Below are positions 243 through 10,585 of a DNA stretch of 64,000 nt, one piece after another. The position numbers and the translations under genes are program-made. How positions within the stretch are numbered: the first letter of the stretch is position 1; each line of letters begins with the position of its first letter. Below the pieces are notes generated by a model, which was not told the DNA's origin, did no database searches, and saw nothing but the letters and a program-made list of their open reading frames with translations. Source of the stretch: Gilvimarinus agarilyticus (lineage in GTDB: Bacteria; Pseudomonadota; Gammaproteobacteria; Pseudomonadales; Cellvibrionaceae); contig NZ_JXCJ01000001.1 of the NCBI RefSeq assembly GCF_000832015.1, positions 771,169 through 835,168 of the forward strand. The letters run 5' to 3'.

Positions 243-2093
243 ATGAGAGCCTTTGTTCTGTTACTAGCGCTTTTGCCTATGATGGCTGGGGCGGATACTG
301 TTGACCGGGTAGAGCCGCCATCCTGGTGGGTGGGTATGCACAGCAGCAAGTTGCAGCTATTGGTACATGGTGATGGTCTAGGTAACTTAACTCCCAAGCT
401 CGATTACTCAGGGGCAGAGATCGTTGAAGTACATCAAGCCGATAGCCCCAACTACCTATTTATAGATTTACGTATTGACCCGGATGCCGAGCCCGGTCGC
501 TTGCCGTTGGAGTTTTACCGGGGCGACGATCTCGTCGCCACTTGGCGTTACCCATTAATGACTCGCGCAAAACACTCGGCTGAGCGAGAGGGCTTTTCAG
601 GCAAAGATGTGATTTACCTGATAACGCCCGACCGGTTTGCTAACGGTGATCCAGGCAATGATACGCTTGAAGGTTATACGGATGGTTTACGCCGCGAGGC
701 TCCGGGTGGCCGCCACGGTGGTGACTTGGCCGGTATTATCCAGAATTTAGATTACATTAGTGAAATGGGCTTTACCCAGCTGTGGCTTAACCCGGTGCTC
801 GAGAATGCTCAGCCGGAATACTCTTACCACGGCTACGCCATCACCGATTTTTATCGGGTCGACCCACGGTTTGGCAGTAATGAGCAGTACCTGGCTCTTG
901 CGCAAAAAGCTCGAGAGCAGGGCATAGGGCTTATTATGGACGTGGTGTTAAATCATAGCGGCTCCAACCATTGGTGGATGCAGGATAAACCGTTTAAAGA
1001 CTGGATCAATTTTGACGGTAAGTTCTCCGCCACCACCCATCGCCGTACTACCTTGCGCGACCCCCATGCCGCCCCCAGCGATACTCGTCAGTTTACTGAT
1101 GGTTGGTTTGTGCCCAGCATGCCCGATCTTAATCAGCGCAATGAATTTTTGGCGCAATATCTGATACAAAGCAGCCTTTGGTGGATCGAGTACGCTGGGT
1201 TAAGCGGTATAAGAGTGGACACTTACTCGTACCCTGAGCAATCTTTTTTGGTCGACTGGGGCGAGCGAGTCCTGGAGGAATACCCTAACTTAAATATCGT
1301 TGGCGAGGAATGGTCTAACAATCCAGCGATTGTCTCCTACTGGCAGAGTGGTAAAGAAAACCCCGACGGATTTAAACCCATGTTGCCGAGTTTGATGGAC
1401 TTCCCATTGCAGACGGCTTTGGTAAACGCGCTTAACACTGAAGAGGCGTGGGGCACCGGGGTGATCGAGCTGTACGAAGCATTAAGTAATGATTTTTTAT
1501 ATCCCGATCCAGACAATTTAGTTGTGTTTACCGATAACCACGACATGAGCCGAATCTATACGCAGCTAGATGAGGATTACGCGCTATGGCAGCAGGCAAT
1601 GGCGTATTTGCTCACCACTCGTGGCATCCCTCAGATCTATTACGGTACTGAGATTCTAATGACTAACCCTGGCACGGAAGATCACGGTGCTATCCGTTCA
1701 GATTTTCCCGGCGGGTGGCCCGGTGACGAGGTAAATGCCTTTAATGGTTCTGGCCTGAGTAAAGAGGCAAAACAAGCACAAGATTTCTTGCGCACTTTGT
1801 TAACATGGCGAAAAAGTAGTAAAGCAATTGCCGAGGGTCGGCTGATTCATTATGCGCCGCACGACGGTGTCTACGTATATTTTAACGTGGCCGACGATTC
1901 ACAGGTAATGACAATACTCAATCACAATAATGAGCCGAAAGAGCTTAACTTAGATCGGTTTGCCGATATCTTAATGCGTGCCGATGAAGGGTTTGATGTT
2001 TTAAACAATAAATCCGTTGCGCTGGAAGGGTCGCTACCGCTTGGCGCTATGGATGCCAGAATTATTACCATAGTGCCTGGTAGTGAACCCTAA
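243..2093 (+). CDS. Secreted GH13 alpha-amylase / cyclomaltodextrinase-type enzyme
   Basis: A 616-residue alpha-glucan hydrolase. It starts with a hydrophobic signal peptide (residues 1-17, cleavage near AGA/DTV), so it acts in the periplasm or outside. Residues about 24-108 resemble the N-terminal domain of cyclomaltodextrinases and neopullulanases. The GH13 barrel follows with region I DVVLNH (233-238), the nucleophile Asp326 in GIRVDT, the acid Glu355 in VGEEW, and Asp434 in DNHD. A small C-terminal beta domain ends the protein. All three catalytic residues are present, so it should be active. AAGGAAA lies just upstream of the ATG. Its neighbour at 2551 carries starch-binding-like modules, which fits a role in starch or maltodextrin use. 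The exact linkage specificity cannot be read from sequence. Confidence 0.9.
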   Translation: MRAFVLLLALLPMMAGADTVDRVEPPSWWVGMHSSKLQLLVHGDGLGNLTPKLDYSGAEIVEVHQADSPNYLFIDLRIDPDAEPGRLPLEFYRGDDLVATWRYPLMTRAKHSAEREGFSGKDVIYLITPDRFANGDPGNDTLEGYTDGLRREAPGGRHGGDLAGIIQNLDYISEMGFTQLWLNPVLENAQPEYSYHGYAITDFYRVDPRFGSNEQYLALAQKAREQGIGLIMDVVLNHSGSNHWWMQDKPFKDWINFDGKFSATTHRRTTLRDPHAAPSDTRQFTDGWFVPSMPDLNQRNEFLAQYLIQSSLWWIEYAGLSGIRVDTYSYPEQSFLVDWGERVLEEYPNLNIVGEEWSNNPAIVSYWQSGKENPDGFKPMLPSLMDFPLQTALVNALNTEEAWGTGVIELYEALSNDFLYPDPDNLVVFTDNHDMSRIYTQLDEDYALWQQAMAYLLTTRGIPQIYYGTEILMTNPGTEDHGAIRSDFPGGWPGDEVNAFNGSGLSKEAKQAQDFLRTLLTWRKSSKAIAEGRLIHYAPHDGVYVYFNVADDSQVMTILNHNNEPKELNLDRFADILMRADEGFDVLNNKSVALEGSLPLGAMDARIITIVPGSEP

Positions 2094-2550
2094 GCGATAT
2101 TCACAATTATTTGTGCCGGGAGTAATTCCATACCCTATGGTTTCCCGGTTAACCTCCTGTCCCATACCCACTTAAAATGTTAAGCCGCATCACAAAGTGT
2201 TACCAATAGGTTTCACTGCATACGTATTCATATTGAACAATATCTGCTCTGTTACTAGTCTTGATAACAACCTGATGATTAGACCTAAATCGTAGCCACT
2301 AATAATAACGAGGGCTCGCATGAAATGTTATCTGACAATATTGAGATTGTTCTCTTTTCGGCTTCACTCAAGCTGACTATCTCCAAAAAATTCTAGCAAT
2401 TATTCGCACGCTTAATTGATCGACAGTTTCTGTCGAGGCGGGTTTGTCGTGTCCAATATAATGGCCGGAGTTTGCTAAGTATCTTTGCTCTTCTGGTATT
2501 GAGCGTGTTCTTGAAAAATAACGTGAAATCACGTTGATAATAATGGCTGG
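2094..2550 (+). other. Intergenic region upstream of the giant fusion gene
   Basis: 457 bp without a credible gene. It contains an imperfect hairpin just after the amylase (CCGGGA at 2116-2121 with TCCCGG at 2143-2148), which may end transcription, and the palindromic element TGCATACGTATTCA at 2217-2230. The promoter of the 2551 gene must lie here, but I do not see a convincing -10/-35 pair, and the Shine-Dalgarno of that gene is weak. Confidence 0.5.
2217..2230. promoter_or_regulatory. Palindromic operator-like site, copy 1
   Basis: TGCATACGTATTCA is a near-perfect palindrome. The same 14-mer occurs at 10452-10465 and a close relative, TGTATACGTATGCA, at 10481-10494, so the three sites flank the two-gene DUF1592/DUF1552 unit. 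The form, with a central CG and short symmetric arms, resembles LacI-family operators that control maltose and glucan genes. The regulator itself is not in the window. Confidence 0.5.
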
Positions 2551-5500
2551 ATGAACGCTATGATTGGCAATAATAAATGTGTCGTTGGCGAACCTATTAA
2601 AACAATATTTTGTTGGTTTGTGTGTGTGGCTCTGCTGGGTTTGTCGGCGAGCTCATTCTCGCAACAGTGGGATCACGCGTACTTTCGTGGTACGCCCAAT
2701 AATTGGGGTGCTGATGAACTTACCTTTAATAGCGATACCCAGCTTTGGGAGACTGTTCAGGAATTCTCGGGCGACAACCCGCGATTTAAAATCACAAGAT
2801 CGGTCAGCTGGGATGAGTCATATCCAGAGGACGACTTTCACGTCGAAGAAGGTCGTTACCGTATTCTTTTTAGCGACACAACTTACGAGGTGTCGGTTAC
2901 CGAAGTAGCACAGGATAATACGACCACCAATAAGCTTGTGTGTTACGACAATGCCTTACAATTTAACACAGGCTTCGTCTATTTCTGGAACCCCACCCCA
3001 TCGGGCGCCATGGTGGGTTTGAACGCTTGGCCAGGCTACCCGATGGCTAACAACAATAATCACTTATGTTATGACTTATCGGAGATAGTCTCCGGAGGCG
3101 TCCTTCCCGAAACCGTTAATGTGATATTTAACAATAATGCCGGTAGCCAAACACAAGACCTGGTGCTCAGTGGCGATTCCTGTTACCGCAATAATCAGTG
3201 GCTAAGTTTAGCCGGGTGTGGTGTCGGTGTTGATGAGTTTTCTATCAGTGTCGGCGAGGATGTTACTGTTGACTGGGGCGATGTAATAACGCTTGAAGCC
3301 ATTTCAGGAAACGGTGATATTGCCGCGGTTGAGTGGACCAGTGAGGCGTGGAGTGGAGTGCTTGAGGGAAACCCAATAAGCTCCCAGGCGTTGCTTTCTT
3401 CCGGTAGCTTTACGGTAAACGCAACAGCACTATCAAATGCCGATGCTTTGGCCTCTGACGATTTTTTGTTAACGGTTAACCCCAAGCCCGATTCAGTAAA
3501 TGCCAATAGTGTTTGCTTTGCCAACCCGGATGATTATGCCTTGCCCCATGTGTATTTTTGGGGCGCGGTGCCTGAGGCAAGTATGACAGAAGCTCCGCCT
3601 TGGCCTGGCGAGCCAATGGAAATGGTAGGGGACAATTACTGTTTTGATTTTTCAGATTATTTAGTCAGTGCGTTTCCAGAGTCCATCAATATAATATTTA
3701 ACGACGGCGCCTCTCAACAAACTGAAGATTTAACGTATCTCGGTAATAGCTGCTATACCGCTCAGGGCTGGAGTGACTTGGCGGCGTGCGATTTAATGCT
3801 GGGCGATTCTGTGCCACAAGCAAATGCAGGTGCCGATCAGGTTGTCTCGCTCGGCGAGAGTATCGAGCTGTCGGCTAGTGCGTCCACGGGAGAGTACCAG
3901 CAGGCCATTTGGAGTAGCGCCCTTTGGAGTGAGGATCTGACTGGTGAGTTAACGACTACCCCGGTATTTAGTGCGGTGGGGGATTTTAGCATAACCTTAA
4001 CGCTGGTAACGGCTGGCGGTGATACCGTGAGCGATACACTGCAGGTCACCGTGTTAGAGGCTAACGGTAACCACGGCATGCCCAATCGGCCGGTTATGGA
4101 GCAACCCCACGCGTTTCCTGTTGACGGCAATGTTTCTCAAGGTAACTACCGTTTCGAGGTTGCCTACCCAAACCTTGTTAATCAGTTTATGGCACCGGTT
4201 ATGATAACCGCAGACCCGGTGAGTGGTCTGTTGTTTGTGGTGGATAAGCCCGGTGTTATTTACGCGTTCCCCGATAGTGAAAGCGTAACCCCCCAAGATG
4301 TTAAAACGGTTTTGGATATTTCGTCAGAGGTTAAAAACTACCACGAGCAAGGGCTATTGAGTATTGCCTTTGACCCTGATTACGCCAGTAATGGCTACCT
4401 GTATGGCTACTATATTTATGGTGAAAGTGATGATGAGCGTGAAGCCAATGGTCAGTTTGGCGATGCCATTTTAAAACGCTGGCGCGTGGCTGACCCTTAT
4501 AACCCCAGTGGTATTGTGTCGGGCTCGGGTGTCGAGCTACTGCGTATTGCCCAGCCCGGCCCCGACCATAAAGGCGGAATGCTACAGTTTCATCCCGAGT
4601 CGAATTACCTGTATCTAAGTGTGGGCGACGGCGCTTACGGCCACAGCGCTATTACCTCGTACCCAGAAGATCCCCGCACTAATAATAATGCGCAGGTAAC
4701 CAGCAATTTGTTGGGCTCAATCATTCGTATTAACCCACTCGATCAGCCCATAAATGGCAAGTACTACGATGTGCCCAGTGATAACCCGTTTGTGGGTGTC
4801 GCAGGTTTTCGCCCCGAAATTTGGTCCTATGGTCACCGCAATCCCTGGCGCTGGGCGTTTGACTCTGAAGCACCGTACACTTTGTGGGAGACAGAGGTAG
4901 GCCAGGCGGGGTTTGAAGAGGTCAACCTAATTGAGAGAGGCAAAAATTATGGTTGGCCCATGTGCGAAGGCACGACCAATCGCGGCGACTTAGGGGGCGA
5001 TAGCAGTAAAGATTGCAGTGTTGATTTTGCGCCTCCCAGAGAGGGCTATAACCACCCGGTAGGGCGCTCTGTTATCGGTGGTTTTGTCTATCGCGGTAAC
5101 AGTTTGCCCGGGCTAAATGGTCGTTTCGTGTTTGGTGATTATGTCACCAAAAAAATCTGGGCGGTCGCCGATGGTGAAGCCAAGCAGTTGGTGACGGATG
5201 CCTTCCCGGAAAATATTGCCTCGTTTGGTACCGGTGTGGGAGGAGAGTCATTGTTAGTTTCTACCTACGGCGTCGAATACGGAGGCAACTCAACCATTTA
5301 TCGTCTGTTAGACGATGACGCCGAGCGGGCGACGATTCCTTCCAGATTATCGGAGACAGGGTTGTTTGAGTCTTTACAGCCACTCGTCCCTAAAACGGGA
5401 GTAATGGAATACAAAGTAAATACCGACGGCTGGTTTGATGGCGCCAGTGTGCGGCACTTTATGGTAGTTGCTGAAGGCGAAACTATAGATTTTTCCGCAA

Positions 5501-8500
5501 CCGATGACTGGGAACTTCCGGTGGGATCGGTATTGGTTAAACACAAAACGTTGCAGCTTAGTGACGCCAGTCAGGCTCCGTTCACCACATCGGTACTGTT
5601 TCGACAGAGAAGTGGTAAGTGGCAAGCGGCTAATTATTATTGGAACGAAGATTATACCGACGCAACCTTGGTTACTGAGACAACCAGTGTCAGTAACACC
5701 GATGTAGACGGTCGCGATCGTCCCGTGCAAGCCGCGGCCGATTGCGGGTCTTGTCATACCGGTAACGGGAGTCGCGAGCCATTGGCGATTCATACCCGCC
5801 AGTTGAACCGTAACTTTGACTACTCAGGCGTTGTCGACAATCAGCTGGATGCTTTTAACCATGTCGACTTGTTTAGCGAAGCGATTGACGCCTCGGACAA
5901 CTATGACCGCTTTGTCGCCATAGATGATTCCGATGCTAGCGAGTTAAAGCGCGCTAAATCTTATCTCGCCACTAACTGCGCGCACTGTCACTCCAGCACG
6001 TTTATGGATTTACGCTTTGACACGCCTCTGGCCGATATGAAGTTGTTGAATGTGCAAACCAATGGTGGGCAATACCGACTTAAACCTTTTAGCCCCGCCG
6101 ATAGCCTGTTGCATATTTACCAGGTAACCGACAGTAACCGCATGCCCAAGGGAACCCTTTACACCAACTCTAAAGCCGATACCTTTTTTCGCGATTGGAT
6201 AACCGCCGCCGGTGCGCAAACAACCGGATTACAGGTGTCAGTAACCGATACTCTCAACCCGGGTGACAGCGCAAACGCTATTGTTTCGGCGTTATTTGAT
6301 AATGGGTTTAGTGCGCCTGTGGGTGAGGTTACTGTGGCTGTCACCAGTAATCCAGGAATTCTGTCGGTCGAGTCGGTATCCGGCCACGAGCTTAGCTTAC
6401 GCGCACACAGTGTTGGCACGGCGACGCTAACGGTTCAGGCGGAGGGATTTGATCAAACCATTACCATCAAGGTGGTTGAACTGCATACAGCCATCACAAG
6501 TCTCGCCATTGCCCCAAGTGAAGTTAGCCTAAGAGATACACAACAGCTTGTGGTGTATGGCGTTGCTGCAGACGGTACCAAAGCCAATGTTTACGAGCGT
6601 GCGAGCTGGCACGTTAGCAGCGGCAATAATGCGGTTGCCGTTGATAATCAAGGGCTCTTAACGCGTATTAATTCTGGCCCTGCAACGGTGACGGCTCAAG
6701 TGGGCGATTTGACTGCGAGCGTAGAGGTTACAGAACCCTCCGACGATGTATGGTTGCGTTTCGACAACAGCAATAATTGGGAATCCGTTTATGTATATCT
6801 ATGGGTCACTATAGATGGGGTAGACCAGCCGCTCACAGAGTGGCCCGGTGTGCCTATGAACAATACCGATGGTAATTGGTGGCGCTACGGCATCACGCCC
6901 GATCAGCTACCGGATGGAACGGTAAACGCTGTATTCAACGCGGGTGAGGGCGGCGCACAAACGGCCGATTTAAACAATATTACAGAGTCGGTTAGTTACA
7001 CCAATGGGCAATTACAACCCTGGGATGCCAGCGGAATCAACCAAGGGATTTATCGGGTAGCCGTGATTGGCGGCACGACTGAAAACAATGAACGAGATTT
7101 TCCGGTTGGATCTCTGGTCACTGTAACGGCCGATGAGGCTCCATTGGGAACTGAGTTTACCGGCTGGCAGGGCGACGGTGCGGCCTTTATTGTTGGGCCG
7201 GTTAGCAACAAAGTCGTGCAGCTGCTTATTCCCGATCAAAATGTGTCGCTGCAAGCGCTTTTTACCGGAGGCGATGACTTGTATCAGTTGGGGCGGGATT
7301 TTTATGCGGCCCAGTGCGCTAGCTGTCATGGCGATGACGGAAGTGGTGGCGTAGCAAAAGCCATTAACGCCTTAGACGATACCTGGAGTCAGCCACTACT
7401 GGCCAATTACATTGCCGATTTTATGCCTATGGATAACTCCGCCAGTTGCGACGGCACTAACGAGGGTGACTGCGCATTGGAAATTGCCCGGATGGTTATC
7501 GATGAGGCGTGGCAGCCGCAATTGTGTGACGGCGCCGAGTGCGAAGGTGATGCGATTGATGCGCGCAACCTTCGGTTGCTGACCAAAACCGAGTATCTCA
7601 ATAGTGTTCGGGATGTCTTCAATATAAATTTCTCGGCCGAGATTATGAATACCGTGCCCGCAGACGGACGCTATCGTAACTTTACAACGGCCTCGTATTT
7701 ATCATCGGGGTACGACCGTACACTGGGTTACCAAATGGTCGCCAAAGAGTTAGCCGAGCAGGCCATTGCTCGCTACACCTTTAACGGCTTAGAAAACAAT
7801 TGCCAAGATATGCGCTGTGCGGTGAGCGGCTTTGGCAAACGTTTGTTTCGCCGGCCGCTGTCCGGCTCCGAGGTGGATGCCTATACGGCGCTTTATGACG
7901 ATGAGGATGGCGGCCGACGGGCGTTGCAAGCTATGTTGATGTCGCCACACTTTATGTACCGCTCGGAGCTAGGCTTACTTAATGCGGAGTCGGGCCTATA
8001 CGAGCTGTCACCTTTTGAAGTGGTCACTTCACTGGCTTATATCTTCTGGGCGAGCACACCCGATGCGACTCTGTTGACGGCCGCCAGCGACGGCGATTTG
8101 AACCTTAGCAGCCTTTTAAACTACGTGCTGAATGATGCCCGTGCCGAGCAAGGCTTGCGTCGTTTCATCGGCGGCTGGCTGATCAACAATCAGTACCCCT
8201 TCCCCGCCATTAGCAACCCCGATTTAGTCGTAGCGTTAAAAGAGGAGACGGTGCGCTTTGTACTGGAGAATATTGAATCCAATATGCCGTTTTCGGAGTT
8301 GCTGCTGGCCGGTTACACCCAAGCCAATGACTTGGTGGCAGGCCACTACAACCTAGAGGGCGCTGGAGCCGGCTGGGGCGTGCGCAACTACAATGCCGAC
8401 GATCCGCGCGCTGGTGCCGGATTATTGGGGCATGCTAGTTTCTTAGCCTCGCGTACCAATACGGTAAATCCGTCTCCGATAAAGCGTGGGGTTTTTGTAC

Positions 8501-9024
8501 GCGAGATGCTTATGTGTCAGGAGTTTCCGCCGCCGGCGGCAGCCAACTTTGACGTGACCTTTGAAGACGATGACAGCAACCGCGAGGCCACCGCACGTCA
8601 CACCAGTGAGCCGGCTTGTCGCGCCTGCCATCAGTTTATCGACGGGGTTGGCTTTGGCTTTGAGCGTTACGACAGTCAGGGTTTATACCGGGTTATAGAA
8701 ACCTTGGGCAACGGTCAAACTCAAGAGGTTGACGCCAGCGGCTCGATTAAAAGCTTGTACTCGCCAGAGACTGTAATGGATCCGGACAGCGAGGCCGTGC
8801 CGTACCACTCGATTGCCGAGTTGGCTGAGTTGATTGCCGGTAGTGGGCAGGGTGAGGCTTGTTTTGCCCGTCAATTCTATCGCTATGTGGTGGGCCGTGA
8901 GGAAAGCGAGTTAAGCGATGAAATCATTATTCGCTCTTACAGCCAGGATCTTCGTAACGGTGGTGGCATGCGCGACATGCTAAAAGCTCTGGTGTTATCC
9001 GATAGCTTTACCAAACGCCGCTAA
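2551..9024 (+). CDS. Giant secreted fusion: starch-binding modules, PQQ-type sugar dehydrogenase, cytochrome c motifs and DUF1592/DUF1588 region
   Basis: A 2157-residue exported protein. A signal peptide ends near residue 38. Next come a CBM48/pullulanase-like beta domain (about 39-118), two related CBM26-like modules (about 129-222 and 317-412, each with a VYFW...WPG pattern), and PKD/Ig-like spacers between and after them. Residues about 534-890 form a beta-propeller of the PQQ-dependent glucose/aldose dehydrogenase type (SYGHRNPW, KNYGWP). Haem c motifs follow: CGSCH (1065-1069) and CAHCH (1143-1147). Then a Big2-like domain, a third CBM26-like module (about 1400-1495), CASCH (1589-1593), and the planctomycete-type DUF1587/1592/1588/1585/1595 block (about 1660-2157), which holds CRACH (2023-2027). 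The inferred role is binding starch-like glucan and oxidising it, passing electrons through haems. The following DUF1552 gene is the usual partner of the C-terminal block. The start is uncertain because ATG codons at 2551 and 2560 are both possible. Confidence 0.8.
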   Translation: MNAMIGNNKCVVGEPIKTIFCWFVCVALLGLSASSFSQQWDHAYFRGTPNNWGADELTFNSDTQLWETVQEFSGDNPRFKITRSVSWDESYPEDDFHVEEGRYRILFSDTTYEVSVTEVAQDNTTTNKLVCYDNALQFNTGFVYFWNPTPSGAMVGLNAWPGYPMANNNNHLCYDLSEIVSGGVLPETVNVIFNNNAGSQTQDLVLSGDSCYRNNQWLSLAGCGVGVDEFSISVGEDVTVDWGDVITLEAISGNGDIAAVEWTSEAWSGVLEGNPISSQALLSSGSFTVNATALSNADALASDDFLLTVNPKPDSVNANSVCFANPDDYALPHVYFWGAVPEASMTEAPPWPGEPMEMVGDNYCFDFSDYLVSAFPESINIIFNDGASQQTEDLTYLGNSCYTAQGWSDLAACDLMLGDSVPQANAGADQVVSLGESIELSASASTGEYQQAIWSSALWSEDLTGELTTTPVFSAVGDFSITLTLVTAGGDTVSDTLQVTVLEANGNHGMPNRPVMEQPHAFPVDGNVSQGNYRFEVAYPNLVNQFMAPVMITADPVSGLLFVVDKPGVIYAFPDSESVTPQDVKTVLDISSEVKNYHEQGLLSIAFDPDYASNGYLYGYYIYGESDDEREANGQFGDAILKRWRVADPYNPSGIVSGSGVELLRIAQPGPDHKGGMLQFHPESNYLYLSVGDGAYGHSAITSYPEDPRTNNNAQVTSNLLGSIIRINPLDQPINGKYYDVPSDNPFVGVAGFRPEIWSYGHRNPWRWAFDSEAPYTLWETEVGQAGFEEVNLIERGKNYGWPMCEGTTNRGDLGGDSSKDCSVDFAPPREGYNHPVGRSVIGGFVYRGNSLPGLNGRFVFGDYVTKKIWAVADGEAKQLVTDAFPENIASFGTGVGGESLLVSTYGVEYGGNSTIYRLLDDDAERATIPSRLSETGLFESLQPLVPKTGVMEYKVNTDGWFDGASVRHFMVVAEGETIDFSATDDWELPVGSVLVKHKTLQLSDASQAPFTTSVLFRQRSGKWQAANYYWNEDYTDATLVTETTSVSNTDVDGRDRPVQAAADCGSCHTGNGSREPLAIHTRQLNRNFDYSGVVDNQLDAFNHVDLFSEAIDASDNYDRFVAIDDSDASELKRAKSYLATNCAHCHSSTFMDLRFDTPLADMKLLNVQTNGGQYRLKPFSPADSLLHIYQVTDSNRMPKGTLYTNSKADTFFRDWITAAGAQTTGLQVSVTDTLNPGDSANAIVSALFDNGFSAPVGEVTVAVTSNPGILSVESVSGHELSLRAHSVGTATLTVQAEGFDQTITIKVVELHTAITSLAIAPSEVSLRDTQQLVVYGVAADGTKANVYERASWHVSSGNNAVAVDNQGLLTRINSGPATVTAQVGDLTASVEVTEPSDDVWLRFDNSNNWESVYVYLWVTIDGVDQPLTEWPGVPMNNTDGNWWRYGITPDQLPDGTVNAVFNAGEGGAQTADLNNITESVSYTNGQLQPWDASGINQGIYRVAVIGGTTENNERDFPVGSLVTVTADEAPLGTEFTGWQGDGAAFIVGPVSNKVVQLLIPDQNVSLQALFTGGDDLYQLGRDFYAAQCASCHGDDGSGGVAKAINALDDTWSQPLLANYIADFMPMDNSASCDGTNEGDCALEIARMVIDEAWQPQLCDGAECEGDAIDARNLRLLTKTEYLNSVRDVFNINFSAEIMNTVPADGRYRNFTTASYLSSGYDRTLGYQMVAKELAEQAIARYTFNGLENNCQDMRCAVSGFGKRLFRRPLSGSEVDAYTALYDDEDGGRRALQAMLMSPHFMYRSELGLLNAESGLYELSPFEVVTSLAYIFWASTPDATLLTAASDGDLNLSSLLNYVLNDARAEQGLRRFIGGWLINNQYPFPAISNPDLVVALKEETVRFVLENIESNMPFSELLLAGYTQANDLVAGHYNLEGAGAGWGVRNYNADDPRAGAGLLGHASFLASRTNTVNPSPIKRGVFVREMLMCQEFPPPAAANFDVTFEDDDSNREATARHTSEPACRACHQFIDGVGFGFERYDSQGLYRVIETLGNGQTQEVDASGSIKSLYSPETVMDPDSEAVPYHSIAELAELIAGSGQGEACFARQFYRYVVGREESELSDEIIIRSYSQDLRNGGGMRDMLKALVLSDSFTKRR

Positions 9025-9041
9025 GCGATAGGAGAATTAAC

Positions 9042-10433
9042 ATGACAACAAGAATCAATCGGTCTCGGCGTAAACTGTTAATTAATATGGCGCGTACCGG
9101 AGCAATGTTGCCCATTGTTGGGCAAATGCTAGGTCAGAGCGTTTATGCCCAGTCAGGTCAGGCACAACGGGTACTGTTTTTGTATTACCCCAACGGGGTG
9201 GTTCCTTATAACTGGCGTCCAGCTCAGTTTGATGGTGGCATCAGTAGTGGTTCCGGCGAGCTGAGTTTTGGCTTGGGGCCTCTGGCCAATTGGTACGATC
9301 GCTTAGTGGTGTTAAAAAACCTGACTCTGGATATCGGCGCCGGCGCCGGTGCCCACTACAACGATATGCGCGGCATCCTTACAGGTAATAATCAAATCAG
9401 TACCGCCAGCGCCAGCATTGATCATTTAATTGCCGAGCAGTTGGGCAGTGAAGGGGTGCTCAGCCTTGGGGTTCGCACGGGCCCCAAATCCGATATCATG
9501 ATCTCTAAACCGCGTAACGTGGCAACGACCGAGCGGCCTATTCCGAATAATGACCCCCGCGATGTTGCCGCAAAATTAGCGCTGGGTCTTGGTAACGACG
9601 ACACCCCGCAAACCGACGAAATGCAGCGCGTGTATGAAACTATATTGTCTGACTTTGACTCGCTCGCCAATGCCACGCTCGACAGTGTTCGCCGCGATAA
9701 GCTGGCGATTCATGAGAACGCTCTGAAACGCTTAAAAGATCAGGCCGGTGTGCAGTTGGGTGAGTGCGCCTTTAATACCGATGTACTGGCCGATCCGTTT
9801 GCAAACTCTACCCAGGCACTGAGTCAAACCGAGTGGCAAATGTTTCCGCATTTATGCCGCGCACAAATTGATAATATCGTCGGGGCGTTTTCTTGTGGTT
9901 TGCACCGGGTGGCAACCTTACAGTTATCCAAAGGCGACGAAAACGGCAACCTGGTTAATTACTCTTACGATGAGTGCTGGCAAATGGCACAGCAGGCCAT
10001 CGTCCAAGGAATCAAACCCTCACAAAATGCCGGCACCGTGGCACCCATGACGCGCTGGTATAACGAGTTTGCCAGCCACAGTGCATCGCACCGGCCGGGA
10101 GATGTGCCCCACACGGCGCAGGTACGCTGGTACCACTCGTTGCTGGCCTATACCCTGGAGCAGTTAAACAATAAAGGCTTGCTGGACGACACTTTGGTGG
10201 TAATGTTCTCCGAGGTGGGCGATGGCTCTCAGCACGGAGGTGCGGCGGGCTCGGTCACGTTAGCCGGTGGCGCAGGCGGCGCGCTAAGTACCGGGCGAAT
10301 AATTCATTGCGGCAATGGCAGCAATGAAAGCCCACAGCGCATCTGGGGTACGCATCAACTGTTTGGCGATGTCGCGCGCTTGATGGGCGTAAATTCATTG
10401 CCTGAAGCGCACTGGAGCGGCGGCGTGGTGTAA
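9042..10433 (+). CDS. DUF1552 family protein, partner of the DUF1592/DUF1588 protein
   Basis: A 463-residue protein of the DUF1552 family, which is usually found next to DUF1592/DUF1588 cytochrome-like proteins in Planctomycetes and myxobacteria; its biochemical role is not established. The N-terminus contains NRSRRKLLINMA followed by a hydrophobic stretch ending in VYAQS, a twin-arginine-like leader, so export in a folded state is likely. The gene begins 17 bp after the giant fusion gene with AGGAGAA upstream of the ATG, so both are almost certainly co-transcribed. An intrinsic terminator lies at 10586. The overall fold resembles the DUF1501/alkaline phosphatase-like group, but this is only a resemblance. 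Confidence 0.8.
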   Translation: MTTRINRSRRKLLINMARTGAMLPIVGQMLGQSVYAQSGQAQRVLFLYYPNGVVPYNWRPAQFDGGISSGSGELSFGLGPLANWYDRLVVLKNLTLDIGAGAGAHYNDMRGILTGNNQISTASASIDHLIAEQLGSEGVLSLGVRTGPKSDIMISKPRNVATTERPIPNNDPRDVAAKLALGLGNDDTPQTDEMQRVYETILSDFDSLANATLDSVRRDKLAIHENALKRLKDQAGVQLGECAFNTDVLADPFANSTQALSQTEWQMFPHLCRAQIDNIVGAFSCGLHRVATLQLSKGDENGNLVNYSYDECWQMAQQAIVQGIKPSQNAGTVAPMTRWYNEFASHSASHRPGDVPHTAQVRWYHSLLAYTLEQLNNKGLLDDTLVVMFSEVGDGSQHGGAAGSVTLAGGAGGALSTGRIIHCGNGSNESPQRIWGTHQLFGDVARLMGVNSLPEAHWSGGVV

Positions 10434-10451: not shown

Positions 10452-10494
10452 TGCATACGTATTCAGGCGGCGACCACGTGTGTATACGTATGCA
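10452..10494. promoter_or_regulatory. Palindromic operator-like sites, copies 2 and 3
   Basis: TGCATACGTATTCA (10452-10465) and TGTATACGTATGCA (10481-10494) lie 29 bp apart between the DUF1552 stop codon and its terminator. The first is identical to the site at 2217-2230. A pair of operators downstream of an operon is odd. It could allow looping to the upstream site, mark a lost gene, or serve a small unannotated transcript. Confidence 0.45.
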
Positions 10495-10585
10495 TAGCGT
10501 TGAATTGCAAGGTTAGGCTGAGTACTCTAAAAATCTGCATTCATTCCGGTGGATGACATACATGGGCTCTTCTCTGTATTGTGTT

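Follow-up and report, generated by a model that had tools for sequence, protein, structure and literature searches.

We analysed a window of 64,000 nucleotides from the 4.19-Mb genome of Gilvimarinus agarilyticus (contig NZ_JXCJ01000001.1; G000:C1:771169-835168 in our genome collection), in which the gene of a giant, probably exported fusion protein is followed after 17 bases by a gene of the DUF1552 family. An initial annotation of this DNA had read the pair as a starch-targeted oxidative machine, and the open reading frame (ORF) of 2,157 residues and the DUF1552 gene next to it that it described were both confirmed (Table 1). The fusion is real, conserved and linked to starch; a chance or broken-frame artefact was ruled out because several genera have intact orthologues that share its architecture.

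A probable Sec signal peptide opens the protein and is followed by an unnamed module, two family 26 carbohydrate-binding modules (CBM26), a PKD-like stretch, a domain of the GSDH propeller family, an SO2930-type diheme region, Ig-like stretches, a third CBM26, a Flg_new_2 stretch, an X183-type cytochrome and a DUF1587-DUF1595-DUF1592-DUF1588-DUF1585 block. The PKD-like stretch and most of the Ig-like stretches lie below cut-off. Matches above the Pfam gathering cut-off are CBM26, GSDH, DUF1588, DUF1592, DUF1595, DUF1587, DUF1585 and Cytochrome_CBB3, in keeping with the three CBM26-like modules and the planctomycete-type block first described. The four CXXCH motifs of the initial annotation were found at residues 1065, 1143, 1589 and 2023; the SO2930-type region that carries two of them had gone unnamed. 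From the layout of Cbp2D of Cellvibrio japonicus in PMC8981238 and from that of a similar gene of Teredinibacter waterburyi, we infer that the CAZy module X132 corresponds to the DUF1587-1595-1592-1588 block, and the name is used in that sense below.

One assignment fell. A CBM48-like module had also been proposed, and residues 31-125 gave no CBM48 match, only sub-threshold matches to YfjL_N and pullulanase X25. This N-terminal module has no convincing solved relative (best E 0.21) and is related, by translated search, to a 756-residue open frame of the genome that holds a GH13 (glycoside hydrolase family 13) alpha-amylase.

Table 1. Coordinates of the features discussed, in window positions
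Feature	Position	Strand	Basis or remark
GH13 cyclomaltodextrinase/neopullulanase-like enzyme	243..2093	+	Pfam Cyc-maltodext_N, Alpha-amylase, Cyc-maltodext_C; signal peptide probable
Operator-like palindrome TGCATACGTATTCAT, 15 bases, before fusion gene	2217..2231	.	Also at other alpha-glucan genes
Giant fusion ORF, 2,157 aa	2551..9024	+	ORF list; orthologues known
N-terminal module, unnamed (aa 34-120)	2650..2910	+	Resembles part of own-genome GH13 alpha-amylase frame
CBM26 no. 1	2938..3162	+	52.4 bits
CBM26 no. 2 (aa 321-395)	3511..3735	+	Aligned with R. bromii Amy16 and 2c3g
GSDH propeller-family domain (aa 559-874)	4225..5172	+	Pfam E 3.4e-40
SO2930-type diheme region (aa 930-1218)	5338..6204	+	CXXCH at aa 1065, 1143; conserved H998, M1198
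CBM26 no. 3	6757..6975	+	Between Ig-like (below cut-off) and Flg_new_2 stretches
X183-type monohaem cytochrome (aa 1580-1648)	7288..7494	+	CXXCH at 1589; Met 1625
X132-type block DUF1587-DUF1595-DUF1592-DUF1588-DUF1585 (aa 1675-2153)	7573..9009	+	Pfam above cut-off; CXXCH at 2023
DUF1552 (HXXSHH) partner, 463 aa, twin-arginine N-terminus	9042..10433	+	Pfam E 1.5e-37; sulfatase/phosphatase-type fold in model
Second palindrome pair (spaced)	10452..10496	.	Just past DUF1552, before convergent xerC-like ORF; no gene seen

Distribution of the fusion and its partner gene

The genome collection yielded 177 relatives of the X183-X132 block, and the locus counts given here use the best 80 of the 177. 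By this block, the nearest named relatives are Gilvimarinus chinensis (95%) and G. polysaccharolyticus (83%). A survey of other genomes, as the initial annotation had suggested, found 33 of 144 family genomes matching the fusion at E 1e-100, with a fusion-type match in 32 of the 33 (in G215 cut at a contig end) and the GSDH-SO2930 part only in G032. CBM26, SO2930, X183 and X132 share a single frame in 24 of the 80 loci, from genera that include Gilvimarinus, Microbulbifer, Marinagarivorans, Cellvibrio, Colwellia, Pseudoalteromonas, Catenovulum and Arenicella; at least a partial GSDH is present in 23 of these 24, and the remaining locus (L068) is cut. A DUF1552 match follows X132 in 79 of the 80 loci, the exception (L077) stopping at a contig edge, which agrees with the earlier statement that DUF1592 and DUF1552 form a conserved pair without an assigned reaction. 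In an X132 tree made by a quick method, whose tool warned of long branches, 20 of the 21 fusion rows group in a single clade (SH-aLRT 99), and L077, on its cut contig and with a long branch, falls outside.

Other X132 ORFs begin differently. Among 52 of the 59 that lack CBM26 (set A5; seven with short N-termini were left out), the N-termini hold CBM2 in 33, YceI in 28, GSDH and malectin in 4 each, and a GH5 cellulase in 1. Because of these counts and the DUF1552 pairing, we conclude that, in the sequences compared, the C-terminal unit and its partner are constant while the glucan-binding modules that would aim it vary; the fusion shows the X183-X132 unit joined to N-terminal modules of a different glucan-binding kind. 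At L089:5195-11719, a protein of 2,174 residues reads CBM2, GH5 cellulase, esterase-like, CBM9, two X183 and X132, and is followed by DUF1552. Within the genus of Cellvibrio mixtus (G008), the fusions of G207 and G213 match the window at 56-64%, as against 41-48% for other listed congeners, over differing spans, which hints at acquisition by transfer.

The link to starch

Starch targeting, as first proposed, is supported by the binding modules, by the neighbouring mal-type locus and by an operator-like palindrome shared with starch genes. CBM26 matches at a Pfam E of 2.4e-42 over three stretches, and all three CBM26 modules found in the whole genome sit in the fusion. Their Tyr and Trp positions line up with those of Amy16 and 2c3g, and we take them to be the starch-binding residues. 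The GH13 gene that had been noted upstream does encode the N- and C-terminal cyclomaltodextrinase domains. It is the end of a mal-type locus whose remainder lies upstream of the window and comprises a LacI regulator, a major facilitator superfamily transporter, a GH15 enzyme and an enzyme that we read, from its sequence, as GH13. Its orthologue adjoins the fusion in G. polysaccharolyticus, and in Microbulbifer sp. HZ11 the fusion has three GH13 genes and one GH31 gene around it. Within the fetched flanks, which differ in length, GH13 occurs at 7 of 24 fusion loci versus 0 of 56 others. As a general proof of a starch role this neighbourhood fails: 17 of the 24 fusion loci, including all those of Colwellia, Catenovulum and Cellvibrio, have no GH13 nearby, and the wider starch claim therefore rests on the palindrome.

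The core of the palindrome, ATACGTAT, stands upstream of the fusion gene at 15 of 21 testable loci versus 0 of 50 other X132 ORFs (Fisher p 6e-11, a value that is too small since the rows are related). ORFs were counted as testable when the cut covered 460 bases or more, as held for 21 of the 24 fusion loci (L067, L068 and L077 dropped out) and 50 of the 59 other X132 ORFs. The strict 14-base form is present at 13 of the 21 loci, and the mean density of the core over the 80 loci, upstream sites included, is 0.014 per 660 bases. The palindrome recurs before the fusion in Cellvibrionaceae, in Arenicella and in an order that we take to be Alteromonadales. Genome-wide, 27 places match 14 of the palindrome's bases with at most two mismatches, compared with 5 for a reversed control. 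Nine sites have at most one mismatch. Seven stand before alpha-glucan genes (two at a pullulanase gene, two at a TonB-receptor gene beside an alpha-amylase, one at that alpha-amylase gene, one in the GH15/GH13 gap and one at the fusion). Of the other two, one follows DUF1552 and the other lies about 570 bases upstream of a porin-like outer-membrane gene that is not part of the starch set.

Pullulanase, alpha-amylase, GH15/GH13 and TonB-receptor genes carry the palindrome too, which makes the fusion look like part of a starch regulon; this would be of the MalR type. MalR is described in Shewanella (PMC2996990, the consulted part of which yielded no MalR site sequence), and none of the 10 titles listed, out of 14 papers that contain the palindrome letters, deals with starch regulation. 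The main text of a starch RNA-seq paper (PMC10714805) does not mention cbp26A, CJA_, cbp, cytochrome or carbohydrate binding. The second palindrome pair, past DUF1552, is also found in G. polysaccharolyticus (L054:13169, 13198) and is absent from that place in G. chinensis (L053).

Haems, propeller and DUF1552 fold

The redox nature ascribed to the protein is borne out by its four haem motifs and by conserved, probable axial residues for three of the haems. Its SO2930-type region matches TIGR03806 over residues 930-1218 at E 3.5e-44 and 151 bits, under the curated 313-bit cut-off, and is by sequence a divergent relative of the SO2930-type diheme cytochromes. The X183 domain was recognized with a profile of alignment A2 (67 of 77 extracted X183-X132 stretches plus the window), which found PDB entries 8q1v (E 7.7e-16), 7b21, the X183 of Cbp2D (E 6.7e-14), and 8q1w, and its fold was matched by VIA (Z 9.8, root-mean-square deviation 2.7, 73 residues); the Foldseek and VIA lists for the X183-X132 model were filled by cytochrome matches. 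Beyond the CXXCH residues, M1625 of X183 is invariant (68/68), and H998 (32/33) and M1198 (33/33) are conserved in the SO2930 region. These three are the probable distal ligands of the X183 haem and the two SO2930 haems, Met being an axial ligand in structures from Teredinibacter turnerae (PMC10916295). In the 68 rows of X132, the CXXCH histidine 2027 is the only column with at least 90% His, Met or Lys, the next best being Met at 1896 (53/68, Leu in the window) and His 1932 (45/68). Because the alignment holds no conserved distal His, Met or Lys, the X132 haem may be open. Window positions 7741-7932, within X132 (about residues 1731-1794), bear a weak likeness to phycobilisome linker domains (E 0.088; Foldseek E 0.3 and worse), which was not used.

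For the propeller, the initial proposal of a PQQ-type (pyrroloquinoline quinone) aldose dehydrogenase that oxidizes glucan stood as to fold family but not as to cofactor and activity. A profile of alignment A4 (the window and 10 further GSDH domains from fusions; near-copies were removed by eye from A2 to A4) matched soluble glucose dehydrogenase (sGDH) at E 1e-22. In this match the catalytic His, the Arg-Asn pair and the Gly of the Ca site all find counterparts (residue roles in PMC6881810), and the D-H and R-N residues are retained in all 11 aligned domains. Compared with YliI, the Lys of ALK is replaced by Val, and QRIRDVR reads ENIASFG. We take the Lys and RIRDV of YliI to be the residues of the Lys377 and Arg406/408 type, and Arg406 presumably to be a PQQ contact; on this alignment, contacts of these types are absent from the fusion propeller. 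Separate GSDH proteins of the same genome (L005 and L003) retain RIRDV or RLRHV. Lys377 and Arg408 are described as PQQ contacts in PMC6881789.

The AlphaFold model of the DUF1552 protein (69 alignment rows, pLDDT 75.8) takes, as modelled, a fold of the sulfatase/alkaline phosphatase superfamily. Foldseek matched it to sulfatases and phosphatases at E 2.5e-6 and a TM-score of 0.42, the best among the rows shown, VIA gave a Z of 18.1 (root-mean-square deviation 3.3, 255 residues, 10% identity), and the sequence has weak matches to sulfatases (E 0.008). In alignment A3 (68 of 77 DUF1552 stretches plus the window), H346 and H350 are found in 69 of 69 rows, H398 in 67 and an Asp or Glu at 391 in 67. 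H346-x3-H350 and H398 match positions at which, we assume, alkaline phosphatase holds one zinc (Asp-x3-His, His). The 69 rows contain no evident Ser, Thr or formylglycine nucleophile; its expected place, which we judged by what we take to be the sulfatase motifs, is His in the window and in 45 rows, with 21 rows gapped. An RR pair at residues 9-10 occurs in all 69 rows and the string RRxxL in 73 of 79 DUF1552 sequences, the remaining six having RR with other spacing, and the protein is probably exported by the twin-arginine translocation (Tat) pathway. Tat export would suit a protein that loads a metal before export. The genome search found one DUF1552 gene, and no second X132/DUF1552 pair turned up in the genome. 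Elsewhere, a fragment of a second DUF1552 copy lies close to the fusion in Marinagarivorans algicola (L059:16173-16781), and at L085 the DUF1552 match is divided between two ORFs.

Proposed function, alternatives and known systems

We propose that the pair is an alpha-glucan version of the X183-X132 redox proteins of the Cbp2D type, acting together with DUF1552, and give this joint proposal, wiring and reaction centre included, a probability of roughly 0.4. The CBM26 modules would hold the exported fusion protein on starch, both haems of SO2930 and that of X183 would form an electron wire, and glucan would be oxidized, or O2 or H2O2 used, at the X132 haem and the conserved His site of DUF1552; the GSDH-like propeller could be a sugar dehydrogenase in altered form, supplying the wire with electrons, or a relic that binds glycan. 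Haem ligation, wiring, the X132-DUF1552 contact, regulation and the reaction are what we infer from sequences and models.

Cbp2D (CBM2-X158-X183-DUF1587-X132) has the C-terminal X183 and X132 unit in common with the fusion, and both are CBM-linked, the fusion through three CBM26 modules and Cbp2D through a cellulose-binding CBM2. Where Cbp2D has its CBM2 and a YceI/X158 quinone-type domain, the fusion has CBM26, GSDH and SO2930 instead; YceI was not found in it at E 1, and it is therefore a variant of the Cbp2D type and not a Cbp2D orthologue. In C. japonicus, loss of cbp2D or cbp2E alone impairs growth on insoluble cellulose and leaves growth on cellodextrins at the wild-type level. Strains that are missing either of the two in addition to four further genes fail to grow on insoluble cellulose, an lpmo10B single mutant shows wild-type growth, and direct cutting by Cbp2D/E was proposed by the authors (PMC12542752). 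We place the reaction at X132 and DUF1552 because of this difference between the mutants and because LPMO_10, the family of lytic polysaccharide monooxygenases (LPMOs) searched here, is missing or weak in some fusion genomes. Taken further, X132 with DUF1552 would be an LPMO-independent oxidative catalyst for insoluble polysaccharides, built from an open c-type haem and a sulfatase-fold metalloprotein and aimed by exchangeable CBMs; we hold this general form to be fairly unlikely. If it is true, the fusion and its partner would be a bacterial starch-oxidizing machine of a kind not found in the literature searched. Genetic data exist for Cbp2D, whose substrate, cellulose, is difficult to assay; the starch-binding and apparently starch-regulated version offers a clean knock-out and an easy substrate.

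Several observations weigh against our proposal. No measured activity of any X132 or DUF1552 protein was found in the excerpts of the cited literature. The lack of a conserved ligand among aligned sequences is no proof that the haem is open; confidence in the DUF1552 model is middling and its Foldseek TM-scores are low, a fold as such shows no function, and contact between DUF1552 and the fusion protein is deduced solely from the gene pairing. The palindrome is missing before the fusion in six Microbulbifer loci and in G012, and of the 18 places with two mismatches 14 lie away from the mal sites, to which the other 4 belong. Furthermore, the described partner of C. japonicus Cbp2D is Cbp2E, not a DUF1552 protein. 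At L115:8642-11854, a Cbp2D-like gene of T. waterburyi (CBM2-YceI-X183-X132) is followed by DUF1552, and because of this order Cbp2D itself may, by analogy, have a partner of the DUF1552 type.

The propeller could itself be the enzyme, a PQQ-dependent dehydrogenase that oxidizes the reducing ends of maltodextrin or starch and sends electrons down the haems. Membership of the GSDH family and the matched sGDH residues favour this, as do the fungal AA12 (auxiliary activity family 12) enzymes, which bind PQQ without a Lys377 equivalent, and Escherichia coli, which uses PQQ from outside and makes none (PMC6881789). We nevertheless regard it as unlikely, given that the Lys and QRIRDVR of YliI are not kept, that separate GSDH proteins of the genome do keep RIRDV or RLRHV, that PqqC was found in 0 of 32 fusion genomes (positive controls 2/2) and PqqB in 0 of 9 by a search without a control above cut-off, that PqqE of this genome is under the cut-off (20 of 143 class genomes are above it), and that the related T. 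turnerae domain neither bound PQQ nor oxidized glucose (PMC10916295). For the fusion propeller, we lean against PQQ use. Instead of carrying out the reaction, the protein might serve as an extracellular electron conduit or adhesion scaffold, CBM26 merely holding the cell or protein on granules. Four haem motifs on one chain and a general suggestion made for the T. turnerae proteins (PMC10916295) speak for such a role, which is rather improbable in our estimate and leaves the DUF1552 pairing and the many invariant X132 residues unexplained.

Donation of electrons to an LPMO that acts on starch, along the lines put forward for Cbp2D and Lpmo10B, would fit the four LPMO_10 genes of the window genome and the slow reduction of LPMOs by isolated Cbp2D X183 (PMC8981238). 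Yet among 13 of the 32 fusion genomes tested, LPMO_10 was absent from 1, weak and partial in 2 (27-28 bits, cut-off 23) and full in 10, and CBM26 occurs nowhere else in the window genome, a search that did not extend to starch CBMs of other families on LPMOs. The known starch LPMOs (AA13) are, to our knowledge, fungal, which we also count against a donor role. With the T. turnerae X183 domains not feeding their own LPMO (PMC10916295), we consider this explanation quite improbable. Least probable to us is that DUF1552 is a hydrolase of the sulfatase or phosphatase kind, the pair stripping substituents such as starch phosphate and the haem protein being an unrelated companion: the VIA fold match and the weak sulfatase matches agree with it, but the usual nucleophile is not visible, and proteins with CBM2, a module present in 33 of the 52 other N-termini, show the same DUF1552 pairing.

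We found no description of a CBM26-GSDH-X132 protein in the open-access literature. Related in plan are TERTU_3803 and TERTU_2567 of T. turnerae, which, like the fusion, combine a CBM, a GSDH-like propeller and cytochrome c in one secreted protein. X183 and X132 are named for TERTU_3803, whose propeller is annotated pf08450-X173, and the TERTU_2567 homologue carries CBM5 and CBM10; SO2930, CBM26 and starch genes are not reported for these proteins in the excerpts of PMC10916295 and PMC12055684. The AA12 pyranose dehydrogenase CcPDH (AA8-AA12-CBM) likewise unites a CBM, a propeller dehydrogenase and a haem domain. It differs in being fungal, in its b haem and in its PQQ contacts, and the domain list in the part of PMC6881789 consulted has no X132 or DUF1552. 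The PSCyt/PSD proteins of Planctomycetes and Verrucomicrobia, of unknown function, combine PSD domains with cytochromes of the planctomycete type in shared layouts and also occur as gene pairs and CBM fusions, with no CBM26 or GSDH-SO2930 fusion named in the sections of PMC5615132 consulted.

A second GSDH and SO2930 protein is encoded in the same genome (L029:7383-13499; C1:1179382-1185498). It has 2,038 residues, with five F5/8C modules and ThuA, adjoins genes that read as uronate and pectin-esterase genes, and reads as a GSDH-SO2930 core aimed at another glycan.

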